From positions 1 to 32,524 of the forward strand of contig CASEBB010000015.1 of NCBI GenBank assembly GCA_949286015.1: a stretch of DNA of 32,524 nucleotides, read 5' to 3'. This document shows, piece by piece, positions 8,847-28,682 of the stretch. Numbering within the stretch: the stretch's first letter is position 1; every line of letters begins with the position of its first letter. The stretch is from an uncultured Succinivibrionaceae bacterium (GTDB lineage Bacteria; Pseudomonadota; Gammaproteobacteria; Enterobacterales; Succinivibrionaceae). A program made the position numbers and the translations under genes. The notes below the pieces were generated by a model. The model did not search any database, was not told the DNA's origin, and saw only the letters and a program-made list of their open reading frames with translations.

Positions 8847-10838
8847 TTAGCTTGAGGCTTTATCGCTCTTGCTACTGCCTTTTCTGCTTGTCTTGGAGCG
8901 GCTTGCTTTTGCGGTAGTAGCTTTGCGGCCCCCTGCGCTGTTAGAGCCCTTGTTACTAGCAGTTTTGTCTGCCGTCTTACGGCGCACCGTCTTGGTTTTG
9001 CGTGCAGTTTGGTCGCTAGTCTTTGGGCTCTTTGGGGGAGGCAGCTCTTGGTTTTCCACGGCGATTGGCTCAATCATGCCCTCATGGCGCTCGGTGTGCA
9101 CTCCTGTTGACAGCTTGGTTTTCGTAATGGTACGCCATGCAACGATCTGATGGTATTTATCGCAAATCACCACCACAACCCATACCACCAGCTTCCGCAG
9201 CTTTAGAAGGTTGTTGCAGTAGTCATTTTTTACCATCTGCCGCTCAGCTGCATTGAGCGTTTTGGTCTTCGTCAGATCAGTGTTGTAGCGCACGCGCTTG
9301 AGTTCAAAGGCGTAGATGGTATCTTTGGTGATTGCTACCAGATCACACCGGCCATGGCTATTGGCCACCTCGTCTTTAGTGGAGACTAAGGCGGAGCGTA
9401 ACCACATCTTGAACATGGTACGGTAGATTTTCTCTTGTATGACGTCTTTATCGTCAAAGACGTCATATAGGGAGTCGTTCAAGAGCTGATTTAAGCTCTT
9501 ACACACAAGCTCGATATCACCTGAGAGTAGCGCTTGTTGCGCATCTCGGAGCATAGGGTAGATAGCAGTCTCATCTTTGTTCGCCATATGAGCTGTGAAT
9601 ATAGCACTGAGCTCCGAGGCCACTTCGGCGTTAGTGATTTCGCACTTGTATTTAGTAGGGGAGGAGCTAATGGTGGCAGTGCTCTGAGCGGCAAGAGTAT
9701 CAGCAATCTCTCTGATAGAGAGCATGCCACTTTGCACCATAATCTGGTCAAGGGTAACCTCATTTGCTCTGACTGGGCTCGTGAGAGTACCTTTGTCTAC
9801 GACAATGGGCTGGCTATATTTGTTTACCAGCTCGGTTACGTCGTACTTACGCGCATGCAGAAAAGAATGTAAAGCTGCCGACGCATTAGAACTCTCCATC
9901 CAGTATGGATTAAGCTTGAGCTTAGCATTGGCCTGCTTTATAAAATCAGGGTCGTCCAATGGCGCAAAGAACTTGTTAATGGCATAGGGGCTGTACACCT
10001 TGACCGAGGCATCCTCATCAAAGCAAAAGCCATCGTAGGTGTGCTCAAGAAGCTGCCACAGCTCATCGATGGAGATTCCAAGATTATTGGCAGCTTGCGG
10101 GATGTATTCCGCAAAGCTCTGCTCAATCTCCTCTTTGGTATAGCCCAGCAAGTCAGCAAAACCAAGACTCATGCTGAGATCTTGAATGTTTTGCCCCGTA
10201 AACAGCGAGACCTCTCGGTAGCGCATGATGCCTGTGACCAAGATAAATCTGGCGTTATCTTGTTGGCGCAACCAGTTGTAGAAATCTGATAGTACGCTCT
10301 GTAACGCAGCAAACAGTTGCGGATCATTAAGATGCAAGGAGAGTGGGTAGTCCCACTCATCAATCAGAAACACAGGAGTCTGATTGGCGGTTAAGTCGTC
10401 GAGCTCCCTCTTTAGATCATTGAAGGAGACGATGCCTTTATAATTGATTGCACTAGAGAACCCCGCCTTTTTATAAGCAGAAACAAGCTCTTTGCATAAT
10501 TCAGCCTCAAACGTAGTGGCATCAGAGCTTGCTATGCCGATGAACGACAGACTGATAACAGGGTAAGTCTTGGTCTCGGGCCAAAGATCAAAAATGGCTG
10601 TTCCTGCAAAATTTTGTGGGCCATGGGCGAACAACTCTTTCAGCATCGAGCATAGGGTGGTTTTACCCATACGCCGTGGACGCGAAAAGAACACGAAGTC
10701 AAATAGCGTGACTAACTTGCCAAGTTTGGCTGTTTTATCGACGATTAGCTTGTTTTGCCCCACCAACTTGGTCCAACTGGAGACGCCCAGTGGGATAGGC
10801 TTGCGTGGCAATGCGTTTGTGTCAGCGTTTGCGTTCAT
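8847..10838 (-). CDS. AAA-ATPase-like protein with PD-(D/E)XK nuclease domain
   Basis: 663 residues from ATG 10838. The N-terminus (PIPLGVSSWTKLV...LIVDKTAKL) and SRPRRMGKTTL (Walker A, K59) define the AAA-ATPase-like family (PF09820). Walker B is FLIDEWD (D160, E161). Near the C-terminus GRCDLVAITKDTIYAFELKR gives the D499...E512-x-K514 pattern of a PD-(D/E)XK nuclease fold (DUF1703 type). A 64-residue Lys/Ser/Thr/Arg-rich tail ends the protein. AGGAGG lies 4 bases before ATG 10838 and 1 base before ATG 10841; the frame also opens at TTG 10856. The family is common in gut and other anaerobes, often multicopy, with no established role; defence or mobile-element functions are proposed. It stands alone here. 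Confidence 0.85.
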   Translation of the reverse strand: MNANADTNALPRKPIPLGVSSWTKLVGQNKLIVDKTAKLGKLVTLFDFVFFSRPRRMGKTTLCSMLKELFAHGPQNFAGTAIFDLWPETKTYPVISLSFIGIASSDATTFEAELCKELVSAYKKAGFSSAINYKGIVSFNDLKRELDDLTANQTPVFLIDEWDYPLSLHLNDPQLFAALQSVLSDFYNWLRQQDNARFILVTGIMRYREVSLFTGQNIQDLSMSLGFADLLGYTKEEIEQSFAEYIPQAANNLGISIDELWQLLEHTYDGFCFDEDASVKVYSPYAINKFFAPLDDPDFIKQANAKLKLNPYWMESSNASAALHSFLHARKYDVTELVNKYSQPIVVDKGTLTSPVRANEVTLDQIMVQSGMLSIREIADTLAAQSTATISSSPTKYKCEITNAEVASELSAIFTAHMANKDETAIYPMLRDAQQALLSGDIELVCKSLNQLLNDSLYDVFDDKDVIQEKIYRTMFKMWLRSALVSTKDEVANSHGRCDLVAITKDTIYAFELKRVRYNTDLTKTKTLNAAERQMVKNDYCNNLLKLRKLVVWVVVVICDKYHQIVAWRTITKTKLSTGVHTERHEGMIEPIAVENQELPPPKSPKTSDQTARKTKTVRRKTADKTASNKGSNSAGGRKATTAKASRSKTSRKGSSKSDKASS

Positions 10839-11829
10839 CATGCCTCCTCTCAACAATGCAGAAAATGTTACTCTTCCTAATTTTAGCCAAAAGTCAGTGC
10901 CATGTGCTTACGCAAACTGCCCCAATTGATCTTGAGGAAGCATGATAAATCGAAGGGCTCAGCACTATTGCCGCCTCATGGCATTAAAGTCGATAAACAT
11001 CGTAGCATTGTGCCACAGGCGCTAAGCTGGGATGCAAGATAATAGTGTTGGTGCCACCCCATCAAACGCTTAGTAGAGACTGCTTTTTTCTCGCGTGCTG
11101 GCCACTTCAGCTCTTAATAGTGGTCTTCAGTGTCTTCTCCACACAAGCGCTATCAAGCGTTTACGGGCCTTGCTGTGTGCCGCGCTTAACGCCCGCTGTG
11201 TGGTGGCTAAAGTGGGCTTTGCTGCTCCTTGCAGTGTACAGCACCGTGTGAGCTAGCTTCTGACTACAATTCCCCATTATATGTGCCCTGTAACCGTTTG
11301 CGCTTAGCCTCTGGCCATAGCGCATGCAAGCTAAAGGTGCGTGCTGCCTCAGGTATCTTCCTATTTTCGTGAGCGTCATTCCAAATTGGCCATTCCACAA
11401 CCACGGGCGCTGAATCCTAAGTCTATAATGAATCCCGATCAGCTTTTAAGTTGAGACGTTTTAGCAATTAGCAACGGCCACAGCTGCGTGTAGGGACGTG
11501 TGCTGATCCCGTGCTAAAGCAAAGCGTACTTACTCTAGCGCTTTTGCTCTGGGGTAACAACAGAGACTGAGAGGGAATCTTGGTGCACCGTACAAGTACT
11601 CTGTGCCTAATGAGGGCAAGTTTCGCTCACTTGCCGTAGTAAAAACAGAGTGTGGCGGTTCTTCTTCGTGCCCAGTCCGGCGTCAATGGCTTAAGCCAGA
11701 CAGTGAGGAGGGTGGGCTGTGGTGGCAGTAACACCCAAAGCGTAGGTAGGACTACTACCCAGCTTTGGTGCTGGCGACCACAAAGGGTGTGCACTCAGGG
11801 TTTTGATGTCGTTTGATTGGAGTTAAGCC
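10839..11829. other. 0.97-kb divergent gap between the ATPase and nhaB
   Basis: No gene recognised. The longest ORF (11045-11251) is a Cys/Trp/Leu-rich artefact without a ribosome site. The core CGGGCGCTG of the recurrent motif occurs at 11404. Divergent promoters for both flanking genes should lie here, but no clear -35/-10 pair was found. Confidence 0.5.
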
Positions 11830-21022: not shown

Positions 21023-22054
21023 ATGCAAAATAATTTAGATAGTGAACGTCGTGCTCTGACCTTTGACCTGTATGGGGGCCTCTTAAACTTCCAGCTTATT
21101 CCGCACTTTGTCGGTCAAGTGGCGCGTGAGCGTAACATTAGTCCAGAGTTGGCTGAGTTCTATTTCAGCCTCTACATGGACCGCATGATGTATTCGCAGG
21201 ATTTCGTCACGTATCGTGACCTCCTCGCGATGGTCATGAAGTACCTCGATATGGAGCTCAACACCAACATCTTCTCCCCTAATGCCAACGAGCTCTACCT
21301 GCTGCACAACGACTTAAAGCCACACCATGATGTGCTGCCGGTGCTGATGTCCTTAAGAGATAAGGGCTACGAGCTCTTCCTCATGGCCAACTCCAATATC
21401 CAGCTGGTGCAGAATTACTACGATCGCCTCATGGGTCTGTTCTCGGACAAGACCGTGTTAGTGGCGGACGAAGTGCGTTGCTACATGCCGAAGATCGATT
21501 TCTTCCGCTTTGCTTCCACCAAGTTCAAGCTGCGCAGCGCTGATGACCACTTCCATGTGGCTTCGGACTACTTCCGTGACATTGTGCCTGCTTCCAGAAT
21601 GCAGTGGCTGACAGCTTACATCAACCGCTCCAAGACCGGTGAGATGAAGGGAGCCGAGCCTAGCGTCACGCTCACTAACATGACTGAGCTTGAAGAGGGC
21701 ATGACCCGCGCTCATCAGCGTATCTTAGAAGAGGAGCGTGCCGCGCAAGAGCGTGAGATGGCGGTGGCTCGTGCCAAGGAAGAGCAAATTGAGGCTGCGG
21801 AACGGCGAAAGGCGGCGGTACAAGCTGCGGTGCAACAGCAGCAGATGAATCAAATGCACGCCCAAAAGCAGATGTTCCAAAAGGCGGGTGTGCATGAGGG
21901 TAACCAGTACTTTGTGCCACAAAATGAGAAGGATCGTATCCTCTCAGAGAAGATGCGCAACATGAGCCCAACCAAGGCCCGTGCTTTAGCTAAGGCCCGT
22001 GAGAGAGCTATTGCTAATGCACGTTTACGTGAGGGCGGTAACGGCGGCTTCTAA
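21023..22054 (+). CDS. Degenerate HAD-like protein with charged helical tail
   Basis: 343 residues. Residues 10-202 follow the type II haloacid dehalogenase (HAD) layout. Motif I is FDLYGGL (D15 kept; the usual GTL is GGL). Motif II is MANSN (121-125, with S124). Motif III is VRCYMP, where the family has YKP: M155 replaces the conserved Lys. Motif IV is VASDYFRDIVPASRMQW...YINR, keeping D182 and D186 but losing the glycines. From ~225 to the end the chain is rich in E, A, Q, R and K (QQQQ, AKARERA), probably a long helix or coiled coil. No signal peptide or membrane segment is visible. Likely cytoplasmic and perhaps catalytically inactive. Ribosome site weak (GGGCAGG). Monocistronic with its own terminator. 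Confidence 0.75.
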   Translation: MQNNLDSERRALTFDLYGGLLNFQLIPHFVGQVARERNISPELAEFYFSLYMDRMMYSQDFVTYRDLLAMVMKYLDMELNTNIFSPNANELYLLHNDLKPHHDVLPVLMSLRDKGYELFLMANSNIQLVQNYYDRLMGLFSDKTVLVADEVRCYMPKIDFFRFASTKFKLRSADDHFHVASDYFRDIVPASRMQWLTAYINRSKTGEMKGAEPSVTLTNMTELEEGMTRAHQRILEEERAAQEREMAVARAKEEQIEAAERRKAAVQAAVQQQQMNQMHAQKQMFQKAGVHEGNQYFVPQNEKDRILSEKMRNMSPTKARALAKARERAIANARLREGGNGGF

Positions 22055-23042: not shown

Positions 23043-25208
23043 ATGTACTTAAAGTTTTTTGGTTTGGATGACTACCCCTTTGATGGCTTGCCTGATCGCC
23101 GTTTCTACTACGTTGGTGGCTCTCAGCATCAGTCCCTAACGCTGCTTACTACCGCCTTATCCCGCAGTGGCAGTATTTGCGTCCTCTCTGGCTCTTCAGG
23201 TGCCGGTAAGACCACCTTAGTGCGCATGCTGATGCGTTCGTTGCCTCGGCGCATGCGTATCATCTCCATCGATGACCCTCGCCTCGATCCACACATGCTG
23301 CTGGCCACCATTCTGCGTGCCTCAGGTGTCGTGGCCACCTCGCTAGAGTCCATTGCCGAGCTGACTCTAAAGCTGCGCCAAATGCTGGAAAAGTCAATCG
23401 CCATGGGTATCATCACCACGGTGATCTGCGATGAAGCTCAGGGCTTAAGCGACGCGGTCTTAGAGCAAATCCGTCTCATCTCGAACATCGAGGGTGAGGC
23501 GGGCAAGATGATCAACTTCCTCTTAGTTGGTCAGGACGATCTGCTCACGCACATCAACAAGCCTGAGCACGACATGCTCAAAAACCGCATCAAGATCTTT
23601 GCGGTTTTACCACGCCTCAAGGAAGAAGAGGTTGGTGCTTACCTCACCTACCGCCTGCAGCAGGTGTCTTGCGTCAAGCCGATTTTTACCAATCGCGCGA
23701 TTGCGGTCATCACCAAGAAGAGCCAAGGTGTACCACGCCTGATCAATGCCATTGCGGACATGTGCTTGACCTTGGCCTGTGAAAAGAACAAGCAGCAGGT
23801 CAACTCCTTAATTGCCAACAAAGCCGCCCATATCGTGCGCTACAACAAGGTTGGCTTTAAGGACTACGTCCTCAACCTGTGCAAGGAGCTATTCTCGGTT
23901 TCCTTGTACCAGCGCTTACTGGTAATTGCAGCTGCCGCCGTGTGTGCCGCCGGTGCCTTTGTCGGTGCTCTGTACCTGTTAGAGCGCTACCACCCTCTGC
24001 AAACGGTGCAGGAGGCGCTGCTGACTGATGAGCAGGTGCAAAACCGCTATCAGGAGGTGGCCTCTTACCTCTTCTTGGGTAAGAATGCCGAGAGCCGTGA
24101 GCTCTACTACTTCAACCGCGCCATTTCGCAGGCGTACTTTAAGAGCGATGCCTTTGCGACCTTAGTTAAGGTCAATGGCTTTGCCGTTGGTGTCTCTGAT
24201 TCTTCCTCTGGTGCCAGTGCCGGTGGTGAGAGCAGCAATGTTGGTGGCGGTATCACCTTAGTTGACAACGGTGAGGTCGTGATTGGTAACGACCTGTTAG
24301 AGCAGGTGGGCTTACAGAGCCTCTATCAGGTGGGCAGCTTTGATGAGGCCATGTCGTTTAACACGCCAGTGCTCATCGGCCTTATCGATGATAACCTCAC
24401 GCCTTTCTACGCCGTGCTCTACCACATCAACGATGATGTGGCGCAGCTCATCATTGGTCAGTACCTCTTTGCGGTGAAGCTCGATTACGTGCGTGACCGC
24501 TATCTGGGCTCTTACACCTTGCTGCACCCTTATGTGGGCAACATTGACGACCTCAAGTCGCCAAAGACCGACGTGCGTAAGGCCATGGAGAACAACATCA
24601 GGCCGTACTTAGAGCAGTACCGCCAGCACGCCTTAGAGAGCACCAATCGCGATGCTAATTTGGCCTTGGAGCTCTATGACGAGCAGCAACAGCATCTTGA
24701 GGATGTGCGCAATCAGCTGCGTCAACAGCTCCTTGCTACCATGAGCACTGATGGCAAGAGCGAAAAAGCGCTGGCGCGCGAGCTTGAAGAGCGCTTAGGG
24801 CCGGTGCTGGAGCACTCCCGTGAGTACCAGACAGCCTTAGCTAAGCTTAAGGAGTGTGAGGATCGCAGCGCCCGCTATGAGGTGCGTGCTGACAACATCC
24901 GCAATATCTCCTTAAAGCTTGACGGTGGCTACGAAAAGGCCATGAACCTCTTCTTAGAGGATAGGGGCTACACCGATGTCACCTACCGAGCGATTGCGGA
25001 GCTGACCTTATCGTTCTCTGATGGCCCCCGCTTAATCGAGATCACTACTCCTGAGGGCGGTAATGGTGATAACGGTGCTGCTGCTGCTCCGGCTGTGCCT
25101 ACAGCTTACGTGCAGATGAAGGTACCATCTCTGTGGCAACAGCAGGTGCAGTTGCCAGCACGGCCGCATGTTAGTGCGAATGATGCTGCGCAGCAGGCGC
25201 AGGCCTAA
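23043..25208 (+). CDS. ExeA/GspA-like membrane-anchored AAA+ ATPase
   Basis: 721 residues. The N-terminus FFGLDDYPFDGLPDRRF and Walker A GSSGAGKT (50-57), Walker B VICDEAQGL (D130, E131) and LVGQDDL are typical of the ExeA/GspA/MshM ATPases, which work with envelope secretion or pilus machines. A membrane segment lies at ~291-313. The periplasmic part has a region (about 405-495, NTPVLIGLIDDNLTPFYAVL...GSYTLL) resembling the C39-like domain of GspA. The usual C-terminal peptidoglycan-binding domain is not seen; instead residues 520-615 are a likely coiled coil, followed by an Ala/Pro/Gln-rich end. AGGA lies 9 bases before ATG. It forms an operon with the small membrane protein 11 bases downstream. 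No other type II secretion or MSHA genes are near. Confidence 0.85.
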   Translation: MYLKFFGLDDYPFDGLPDRRFYYVGGSQHQSLTLLTTALSRSGSICVLSGSSGAGKTTLVRMLMRSLPRRMRIISIDDPRLDPHMLLATILRASGVVATSLESIAELTLKLRQMLEKSIAMGIITTVICDEAQGLSDAVLEQIRLISNIEGEAGKMINFLLVGQDDLLTHINKPEHDMLKNRIKIFAVLPRLKEEEVGAYLTYRLQQVSCVKPIFTNRAIAVITKKSQGVPRLINAIADMCLTLACEKNKQQVNSLIANKAAHIVRYNKVGFKDYVLNLCKELFSVSLYQRLLVIAAAAVCAAGAFVGALYLLERYHPLQTVQEALLTDEQVQNRYQEVASYLFLGKNAESRELYYFNRAISQAYFKSDAFATLVKVNGFAVGVSDSSSGASAGGESSNVGGGITLVDNGEVVIGNDLLEQVGLQSLYQVGSFDEAMSFNTPVLIGLIDDNLTPFYAVLYHINDDVAQLIIGQYLFAVKLDYVRDRYLGSYTLLHPYVGNIDDLKSPKTDVRKAMENNIRPYLEQYRQHALESTNRDANLALELYDEQQQHLEDVRNQLRQQLLATMSTDGKSEKALARELEERLGPVLEHSREYQTALAKLKECEDRSARYEVRADNIRNISLKLDGGYEKAMNLFLEDRGYTDVTYRAIAELTLSFSDGPRLIEITTPEGGNGDNGAAAAPAVPTAYVQMKVPSLWQQQVQLPARPHVSANDAAQQAQA

Positions 25209-25219
25209 AGGAGGGCGCC

Positions 25220-25651
25220 ATGCTTACAGCTGAGGAGAAAAAAGCAGCCCTCTGGGAGCTGTCTTTTAACTGGCTTAAGGCGCTTAAGCTCTTTTTCTTT
25301 TGCTTAGCGGCTTTTTCGGTAGGCTTAACGGCTCTGTACTGGACGCTTGATGAGCAGTATGGCCAGCGCCTTGAGGCGGTAAAAGCGCAGCTTTTACGGG
25401 ATATGGATGCCTTAGAGGAGCACTACTCCTATAAGCCGTTAGCCTCGCTCTATGAGGGCGTAGTGGCCTTTGGGGGGAAGGCTGACTTTGATGCCACTAA
25501 GGCGGTGGTGATTCCAAGTACCGAGCGCCTGAATAAAGAGCAATTAGTGGCAGTAAAGGGCCAGAGACGTGAGGTGGCACCGAGCGTCTATGAGGTGCGC
25601 TTTATTGCGGCTGCTGATAGCGCGGCTCAGACCGAGACTTTGGACGAGTAA
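25220..25651 (+). CDS. Small single-pass membrane protein, partner of the ATPase
   Basis: 143 residues, family not recognised. Residues 22-43 (LKLFFFCLAAFSVGLTALYW) form one membrane segment after a short charged N-terminus. The rest is probably periplasmic: a helix with acidic and basic residues (45-68), then SYKPLASLYEGVVAFGGKADF and a likely beta-rich part ending in VYEVRFIAA. It starts 11 bases past the ATPase stop with AGGAGG 5 bases before ATG, so it is co-transcribed and strongly translated. By position it could play the role of GspB/ExeB, which pairs with GspA/ExeA, but no GspB sequence motif was identified. Confidence 0.8.
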   Translation: MLTAEEKKAALWELSFNWLKALKLFFFCLAAFSVGLTALYWTLDEQYGQRLEAVKAQLLRDMDALEEHYSYKPLASLYEGVVAFGGKADFDATKAVVIPSTERLNKEQLVAVKGQRREVAPSVYEVRFIAAADSAAQTETLDE

Positions 25652-26981: not shown

Positions 26982-27740
26982 TTAGTAGCGCTCGCGCTTT
27001 TGCTTGCGCGTTGGGCGGGGAATAAACACAAAGATCACACCAGCAATGGCACCGCAAAACGCGATAATCGCACCCTGCATCCACCAGCGCATTTGCATGT
27101 CGAGATCCTTGGTCTCTAAGCGCTCAGAAGCATCACGATAGAGCGTATCCAGCTCCTCAATCGTAGCATCACGCTGCGTTAAGGTGCTCTTCAGCTCAGT
27201 GTTTTCTTGCGTCATGGTGCTCAGCTGGGCCTCGACTTCCTTTAAGCGGGCTGCCAGCTCGTTATCGTAGTTGTCTAAGCGGTACTGCAGATCGTTGATC
27301 GTGCCTTTCAGTTGCTCGACTAAGGGTGCACCACAGATGTCAGGTTGAATGGTGTCCAGAGGCATCCAAAAGGTCTTACCCTCGCTGTCTGCTAACTGGG
27401 CATAACGGCCATTGTCAGAGTAGCGGCGAAAGGTCAATTGCTCACCAATTTCGCGTTTACCGGTGACGCGATAGCCCTCACCTGGTCCCGAGCGAGTCCA
27501 GACGGTGTTCTTATCGGAGACGTAGACGGGGCCACCCACGTAGTAGCCATTGCGGTCTGGTTGTGGAGCTGGTTGGGCTTCAGGTGCGGCCTCGGCAGGG
27601 GCAGTAGTGGTCGCGGTAGCTGGAGCTGGCGCTGGATTTTCCTCGCTTGCCTGCACTGTGCTGCTGCCTAAAAGCAGACTAAAGAGCGTAGCCAGCACAC
27701 ACAAAAACCCTAGGTTATGAAGTGAGTTCTGTTTCTGCAT
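26982..27740 (-). CDS. ygiM: SH3-domain membrane protein, YgiM/TIGR04211 type
   Basis: 252 residues from ATG 27740. A signal peptide (1-32, with LGFLCVLATLFSLLLG and cleavage near VQASE) is followed by an Ala/Pro/Thr linker (35-62). A bacterial SH3 domain (about 66-137, VYVSDKNTVWTRSGPG...WMPLDTIQ), a coiled coil (140-215), a membrane segment (220-241) and a basic cytoplasmic tail (RPTRKQKRERY) come next. This is the order seen in E. coli YgiM. The neighbour glnE, divergent here, supports the assignment: ygiM lies between glnE and cca in E. coli. Function is unknown; binding to cell wall or envelope is assumed from the SH3b fold. An ATG at 27770 would add 10 residues. No good ribosome site at either. 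Confidence 0.88.
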   Translation of the reverse strand: MQKQNSLHNLGFLCVLATLFSLLLGSSTVQASEENPAPAPATATTTAPAEAAPEAQPAPQPDRNGYYVGGPVYVSDKNTVWTRSGPGEGYRVTGKREIGEQLTFRRYSDNGRYAQLADSEGKTFWMPLDTIQPDICGAPLVEQLKGTINDLQYRLDNYDNELAARLKEVEAQLSTMTQENTELKSTLTQRDATIEELDTLYRDASERLETKDLDMQMRWWMQGAIIAFCGAIAGVIFVFIPRPTRKQKRERY

Positions 27741-28682
27741 AAAAACTTCGTTGCGTGAAGCGCGCACCATGTGCTGCTATCCATGGGATGGATAAGCGCT
27801 TAAGTTGAGCCAAAGGAGGTGGCCACGGGAGTAGAGGCAAAGGGCGCGGCAAGAGAAAAGCTTGAGAAAGCAAAAAGAGTGTGGAGGTACAGCGTTGTAA
27901 GTTGCTGCTGCCGCCAGCACGGGGGTTCTTTGGAGAAGAAACCGGCGCTAATGATACCACACCGCCATATGTAGCGAGGTTTTGCCGTGCAGGCAGGGCT
28001 GGGGTGCTATGGCTTTTAGTTTGAGGTTTCAAGCGTAAAGGCAGATAGTGGTGCGTTTTGGGGCTGCGGGGCGTAGTGAGGCTAGATGGCTCATAGCTTA
28101 GCTTCAGGAACTCTCGGCACCACCACCACCACCACCACCACCACTACGTTCCCCAATCTCAAGGGCAGACGCTTTACTCAAAGCAAGATCAAAGGGCCGA
28201 TCCACTCTCAAAGTATGATCTGGACATGGTCATTACCACCATAACCGCCATTACCACCACGTCGCCTCAAGCTCAAGTGCAGCCGCCTTACTCTAAGTGA
28301 GGCCAAAGGGCCCTATCCACTCTCAGAGTATGCTCTGACCATGGCCATTACCACCTTAACCGCCAGCACCACCATGTCACCTCAATCCCAAAGGCTACCG
28401 CCTGTACTTTGAGTATTGCCAATATCCATTAGCAGTTATCCTCCGTCTGCCCCGCATCAAGACAAAAGCACCACCAGTAGCGCACAGCACTGGTGCATCT
28501 CAGCCCATCCCCTCACCATCATGGTCTAGCAACGTGCATCATCTCCCGCTTCACAACAGCAATGCGTGGCAAGCCCCCAGCTATTGGTTACAATGAGTGC
28601 TGACTACCCAAAGCGGCAGTCCTAATTTTGGGCAACCCCCCAAGAAAACGGTGCACCCAGATAAGTAGAGGAGGGCGGAAGC
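27741..28682. other. 0.94-kb divergent gap upstream of glnE
   Basis: Holds a (CAC)9 microsatellite and a ~114-bp tandem repeat. The minus frames at 27715-28032 and 28581-28901 lack ribosome sites and are not called. No clear promoter was found. Confidence 0.55.
28104..28430 (+). repeat. 114-bp tandem repeat with (CAC)9 tract
   Basis: CAAAGGGCC blocks at 28190 and 28304 set a 114-bp period. Each is followed by TATCCACTCTCA, a CATTACCACC block, TCACCTCAA-like and CCGCCTTACT-like blocks. The unit at 28104-28189 is partial and its trinucleotide part has expanded to nine CAC (28118-28144). In the second unit TCAGAG-TATG-CTCTGA forms a hairpin. Confidence 0.75.

Follow-up and report, generated by a model that had tools for sequence, protein, structure and literature searches.

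The window, i.e., the whole 32,524-nt stretch that was analysed (contig CASEBB010000015.1 of an uncultured Succinivibrionaceae bacterium), carries on its forward strand a gene for a GspA-type AAA+ ATPase, followed directly by a gene for a small membrane protein (the partner). The two genes are referred to here as the derived pair. The features of the locus are as follows.

23043..25208, + strand: derived GspA-type AAA+ ATPase, 721 aa (open reading frame; profile searches, synteny, tree)
23043..23852, + strand: cytoplasmic AAA+ domain, residues 1–270 (AAA_22 match; Walker motifs)
23889..23984, + strand: single transmembrane region of the ATPase, residues 283–314 (Kyte-Doolittle scan)
24102..24530, + strand: C39-like periplasmic domain without cysteine, residues about 354–496 (AF2, 4g54 match, hhalign, PF21327 in homologues)
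24567..24902, + strand: long helical hairpin/coiled coil, residues about 509–620 (AF2 pLDDT above 90)
24927..25040, + strand: terminal short helices, residues about 629–666, ending SDGPRL (colinear with the PG_binding region of class A)
25207..25214, + strand: Shine-Dalgarno sequence AAAGGAGG preceding the partner and overlapping the stop codon of the ATPase (sequence)
25220..25651, + strand: partner, 143 aa, a single-pass membrane protein at the position of gspB (open reading frame downstream of the ATPase)
25271..25348, + strand: transmembrane region of the partner, residues 18–43 (hydrophobicity scan; AF2 helix 18–69)
25553..25603, + strand: conserved C-terminal motif of the partner, residues 112–128, predicted beta hairpin (alignment; AF2 strands 112–120 and 123–130)
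26982..27770, − strand: ygiM-like gene (TIGR04211, SH3 and anchor; downstream flank conserved for ordinary gspAB and the derived pair)

The cytoplasmic part of the ATPase was recognized by the Pfam profile AAA_22 (E 2.5e-19), and a motif scan found both the Walker A (GSSGAGKT at residue 50) and the Walker B motif (TTVICDE at residue 125) intact. This domain was very strongly conserved, with 96% identity to its counterpart in genome G001 at pS 0.67. The sole hydrophobic span in the Kyte-Doolittle scan comprised residues 283–314. The best NCBIfam match was TIGR03015 (XrtA/PEP-CTERM-associated ATPase), which aligned with residues 1–255 (E 1.2e-46) and scored 159 bits compared to a cut-off of 324.5; this model spans only about the first 256 residues. 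The reading of the locus as a defence system was rejected, as PADLOC gave weak ATPase matches only. The nearest named locus (L101) is that of Candidatus Anaerobiospirillum pullicola, with 97% identity across the ATPase. By this comparison, the window's genome is close to that species.

The periplasmic part of the ATPase (residues 316–721) was modelled with AF2 at a mean pLDDT of 81.5. The C39-like fold was predicted with confidence (pLDDT of about 95 over most of the domain, except for a loop at model positions 73–94); in the model, a long helical hairpin comes next, and short helices form the end. The best full-domain structure match was 4g54, the periplasmic part of Vibrio vulnificus EpsAB (Z 10.2, rmsd 4.0, 182 residues aligned), in a comparison where other C39-type folds scored as high. 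The VIA-align alignment of the model to 4g54 covered model positions 39–351. A search of PDB sequences with the ATPase family profile matched 4g54 and no other entry (hmmsearch E 0.0037). The GspA_C39-like profile PF21327 was sub-threshold in the window's ATPase (E 0.0033, 18.3 bits, cut-off 27), and matched 23 of the 32 derived homologues at E ≤ 0.1, the best of them at 8.5e-8. With hhalign, the family profile aligned to the C39-like domain of Escherichia coli GspA with a probability of 94.8% (E 5e-8). Judged from profiles and predicted fold, the periplasmic domain of the ATPase is the GspA C39-like domain. A preliminary description of this DNA had named a GspA-type AAA+ domain, one membrane helix, and a C39-like region, and all three were found. 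No cysteine is present between residues 301 and 605, and the catalytic cysteine of C39 peptidases is thus absent; the protein is therefore not expected to act as a C39-type cysteine peptidase. In Anaerobiospirillum, the C39-like domain also lacks the cysteine pair that ordinary GspA shares with most derived homologues from other genera.

The preliminary description further proposed that a coiled coil takes the place of the peptidoglycan-binding domain of GspA. The hairpin was indeed seen and PG_binding_1 (PF01471) was unrecognizable: the Pfam search listed it for none of the 32 derived periplasmic parts, compared to all five ordinary GspA proteins examined (E ≤ 0.005). However, this replacement is not general, as only Anaerobiospirillum has the coiled coil, which is absent from the homologues in other genera, most of which are 535–635 aa long and end shortly past the C39-like domain. 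The terminal helices of the window's ATPase are colinear with the PG_binding region of class A, and their SDGPRL end resembles the MPRL end of ordinary GspA. When the C-terminus alone was compared to ordinary GspA with hhalign, the alignments were colinear in one comparison and not significant (E 0.6–0.9). These helices (residues about 629–666) may be what is left, in degenerate form, of the peptidoglycan-binding domain of GspA. Active envelope remodelling, the role initially suggested for the pair, was not borne out, because the peptidoglycan-binding domain is unrecognizable and the C39-like domain has no cysteine.

The partner follows the ATPase after a spacer of exactly 11 bases (25209–25219), with AAAGGAGG as the strong ribosome site previously described. 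Its description as a 143-residue single-pass protein with no recognized family also held: residues 18–43 form the membrane span, and searches of Pfam and NCBIfam gave no Pfam match and no meaningful NCBIfam match. The hallmark of the partner family is the C-terminal motif VKGQRR...VYEVRF (also VKGQKR...YEVRFV), in which K113, Q115, and R127 are nearly invariant. The HR domain (T2SSB, PF16537), which binds the secretin N0 domain in GspB, was not found in the partner by profile searches. Similarity to E. coli GspB was not detectable, and in hhalign comparisons with nine GspB proteins the membrane helix alone aligned (probability 17%–32%). The AF2 model of the partner was of low confidence (pLDDT 75, pTM 0.39) and matched nothing in the PDB at E ≤ 0.001; the sequence search of the PDB gave nothing below E 0.69. 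The partner matches GspB in position, size class, and topology; homology of the two is based on position and topology only, i.e., on a single-pass inner membrane protein encoded directly 3' of gspA. Replacement of gspB rather than its remodelling could apply, because only the membrane helix is aligned by hhalign. The partner adjoins the ATPase, directly downstream, in 30 of the 30 derived loci that could be assessed (those not cut by a contig end). Strong matches to the partner family were confined to the same genomes as the derived ATPase. Outside the family, the matches were only weak (E 5e-7 to 5e-5, open reading frames of 331–586 aa) and came from a single further genus and two individual genomes.

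The order of genes at the locus is tsaD-folB-folK-bacA, cca, the ATPase and partner, ygiM-like (TIGR04211), CYTH, and glnE. In the Succinivibrionaceae that have a type II secretion system (T2SS), this position is occupied by an ordinary GspA that carries PG_binding_1 together with a GspB that carries T2SSB. Outside the family, cca adjoins gspAB in two genomes. Anaerobiospirillum retains the ygiM and glnE flank, but has the upstream block in inverted orientation and cca at a greater distance. The ATPase is thus encoded at the gspAB address, with the partner in the gspB position. Because this address is common with the T2SS-positive relatives, the derived pair is most likely a positional descendant of gspAB. 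The preliminary reading was partly supported: the partner is of no recognized family, but the origin of the pair can be traced through the gspAB locus and the GspA C39-like domain. An unrelated ATPase pair inserted at the gspAB locus, or replacing it, would accord with the stand-alone pair originally proposed and with the low identity of the AAA+ domain to family GspA (only about 30%), its long stem in the tree, and the restriction of partner-GspB similarity to the membrane helix. We regard such an origin as very unlikely, since the GspA-specific C39-like domain, the order, the topology, and the address are all shared with gspAB.

Among the open reading frames of the window that were scanned against Pfam and NCBIfam, no secretion or pilus gene was found, in agreement with the earlier description. 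Two other genes of the window were recorded. At 8847–10856 (− strand), a 669-aa protein with AAA-ATPase_like and PDDEXK_9 domains is encoded; this family may be mobile, as its members lie near the pair in eight of the loci examined. At 21023–22054 (+ strand), a HAD-type protein with a charged C-terminal extension is encoded, which adjoins the pair in Anaerobiospirillum loci only.

The distribution of the pair was determined in 57 Succinivibrionaceae genomes, where the derived ATPase was counted at a match over 330 bits. The derived pair was found in 35 of them, none of which had GspD over the cut-off. In 16 genomes of the family, T2SSB or an ordinary GspA (about 30% identical) was present, and 14 of them had GspD; the two without it are assemblies that are 74%–77% complete. 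Neither version of the pair was found in six genomes. In the genome collection, the derived ATPase was limited to Succinivibrionaceae, save for four distant ATPase matches. Profile searches of the window's genome (G000, 93.7% complete) detected no GspD-type secretin, GspF, or T2SSB. Its nine congeners were likewise without a T2SS secretin, with one weak secretin match in G008 (9.2e-32). A clear GspB homologue together with a complete T2SS, or an ordinary peptidoglycan-binding domain, had been named as counter-evidence to the initial reading: the partner is no clear GspB homologue, the genome has no T2SS, and the ATPase has no recognizable peptidoglycan-binding domain. A literature search of partial coverage found nothing on a GspAB pair without T2SS, nor on T2SS in Succinivibrionaceae.

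Other trans-envelope systems are present in some of these genomes. The sole strong T2SSE match in the window's genome has TrbC- and TrbE-like genes as neighbours; this GspE-like ATPase thus belongs to a conjugation locus. This conjugative type IV locus (L158:5956–12320, contig C10) encodes a VirB11-like ATPase, a TrbC-like pilin, and a TrbE/VirB4-like ATPase. A secretin is also found in some Succinivibrio; in the one locus read (L157:1179–10545 of the complete genome G042), it is part of a type III injectisome with FHIPEP, SseC-like, Secretin, and YscD-like genes. The pair could accordingly serve another secretin or trans-envelope channel, e.g., the type III injectisome or the conjugative type IV system. 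However, the GspD-model secretin had no match in G000–G007, G009, and many further carriers of the pair, and the type III secretin also occurs in genomes without the pair (e.g., G020, G021, G031, and G051). A type III or type IV client was rejected because its distribution across genomes does not match that of the pair, and we consider it highly improbable.

In the tree of AAA+ domains, the derived sequences formed a single clade (support 100/100), with a stem of 2.31 changes per column and slow evolution afterwards. This clade was not placed inside family GspA, and its split from GspA and MshM was left unresolved by the tree. The genera that carry the pair grouped at 0.996 in a tree of concatenated flanking genes. 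One ATPase clade together with grouped host genera suggests one loss of T2SS coupled with one remodelling. The dN/dS of the ATPase was about 0.07–0.13 in most pairs (up to 0.21), and that of the partner was 0.09–0.27. The ATPase values argue against decay and indicate that the pair is in use; by this measure, the pair is kept under strong purifying selection. The loss of the peptidoglycan-binding and HR domains would be compatible with a relaxed need, and the six genomes with neither version of the pair with a decaying vestige of the lost T2SS. Such decay is barely credible given the low dN/dS, the intact ATPase frame in every carrier, the conserved motifs, and the joint retention of both genes across many genera.

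ExeA attaches to wall material, forms multimers with ExeB, and is required for secretin assembly; the periplasmic domain of ExeB bridges to the secretin N0-N1 domains (PMC4098917, PMC9239104). The derived pair resembles GspA/GspB (ExeA/ExeB) of the Aeromonas and Vibrio T2SS in its two-gene order, in the architecture of the first protein (GspA-type AAA+ domain with Walker motifs, one membrane helix, and then the C39-like periplasmic domain), in the single-pass topology of the second, and in the chromosomal address in relatives. In contrast to GspA/GspB, it has no recognizable PG_binding_1 and no HR domain (T2SSB), and its genome has no secretin or T2SS. In E. coli K-12, GspA is described as archetypal, with a peptidoglycan-binding domain, and GspB as small, with no HR domain (PMC9239104). 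Therefore, a GspB without HR has a precedent, and this one (139 aa) is also of the size of the partner. The periplasmic C39-like domain of E. coli GspA is homologous to that of the derived ATPase. Unlike the derived pair, E. coli gspAB adjoins gspC-gspI of the T2SS locus. The MshM ATPase of MSHA pili also has a GspA-type AAA+ domain, but it is only about 300–320 aa long, has no periplasmic part, adjoins the mshL secretin, and forms a separate clade.

Taken together, it is likely that the pair descends from the T2SS assembly factors GspA and GspB, which were retained and rebuilt when the secretion system was lost in an ancestor within the Succinivibrionaceae, and which now have a non-secretin client. 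As T2SS is absent from the host, a gut bacterium, and from its relatives, and the pair is under strong selection, the two proteins probably have a different function in the cell envelope. By analogy with ExeAB, the ATPase would multimerise in the cytoplasm and join the partner in the membrane, and ATP hydrolysis would drive the assembly or placement of an envelope-spanning structure. The secretin would no longer be the client of the pair, and wall contact via PG_binding_1 would have been abandoned, with the coiled coil in its place in Anaerobiospirillum. Since the ATP-driven core and the membrane anchoring are kept and both specificity modules are dropped or changed, we infer the same type of scaffold with a different client.

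The leading candidate for this client, weakly supported, is the flagellum. Specifically, the pair could help the rod and ring or the polar tuft to assemble through the cell wall. FlgI was present in 35 of 35 genomes with the derived pair and missing in two of the six family genomes without the pair and T2SS (Fisher p 0.018, uncorrected for kinship). One of these six (G031) has neither the pair nor FlgI, and four of its congeners have both. However, FlgI is present and the pair absent in G021, G030, G051, and G053, and flagella are built without the pair in most bacteria. In G007 (L066), the pair is followed at a distance of about 1.4 kb by four consecutive flagellin-like open reading frames in the same orientation, but only this one of the ten Anaerobiospirillum genomes shows such an arrangement. 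We consider this specific role unlikely. The broader proposal, that the GspAB module was uncoupled from secretion and became an independent ATP-driven machine for envelope assembly that serves a new client (perhaps the flagellum), is tentative, and we give it somewhat less than an even chance.

If this broader proposal is true, a secretin-assembly ATPase can be re-targeted. The presence of a GspA annotation should not be taken as evidence of type II secretion. GspA has been studied together with the secretin and the wall, so that its own role in the envelope has been hard to separate from theirs. This lineage would provide a natural experiment, in which the secretin and the peptidoglycan-binding and secretin-binding domains were lost and the ATPase and C39-like parts were kept under strong selection. 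The core function of the ATPase is thereby separated from the secretin in a lineage that includes the cultured species Anaerobiospirillum succiniciproducens and Succinivibrio dextrinosolvens.
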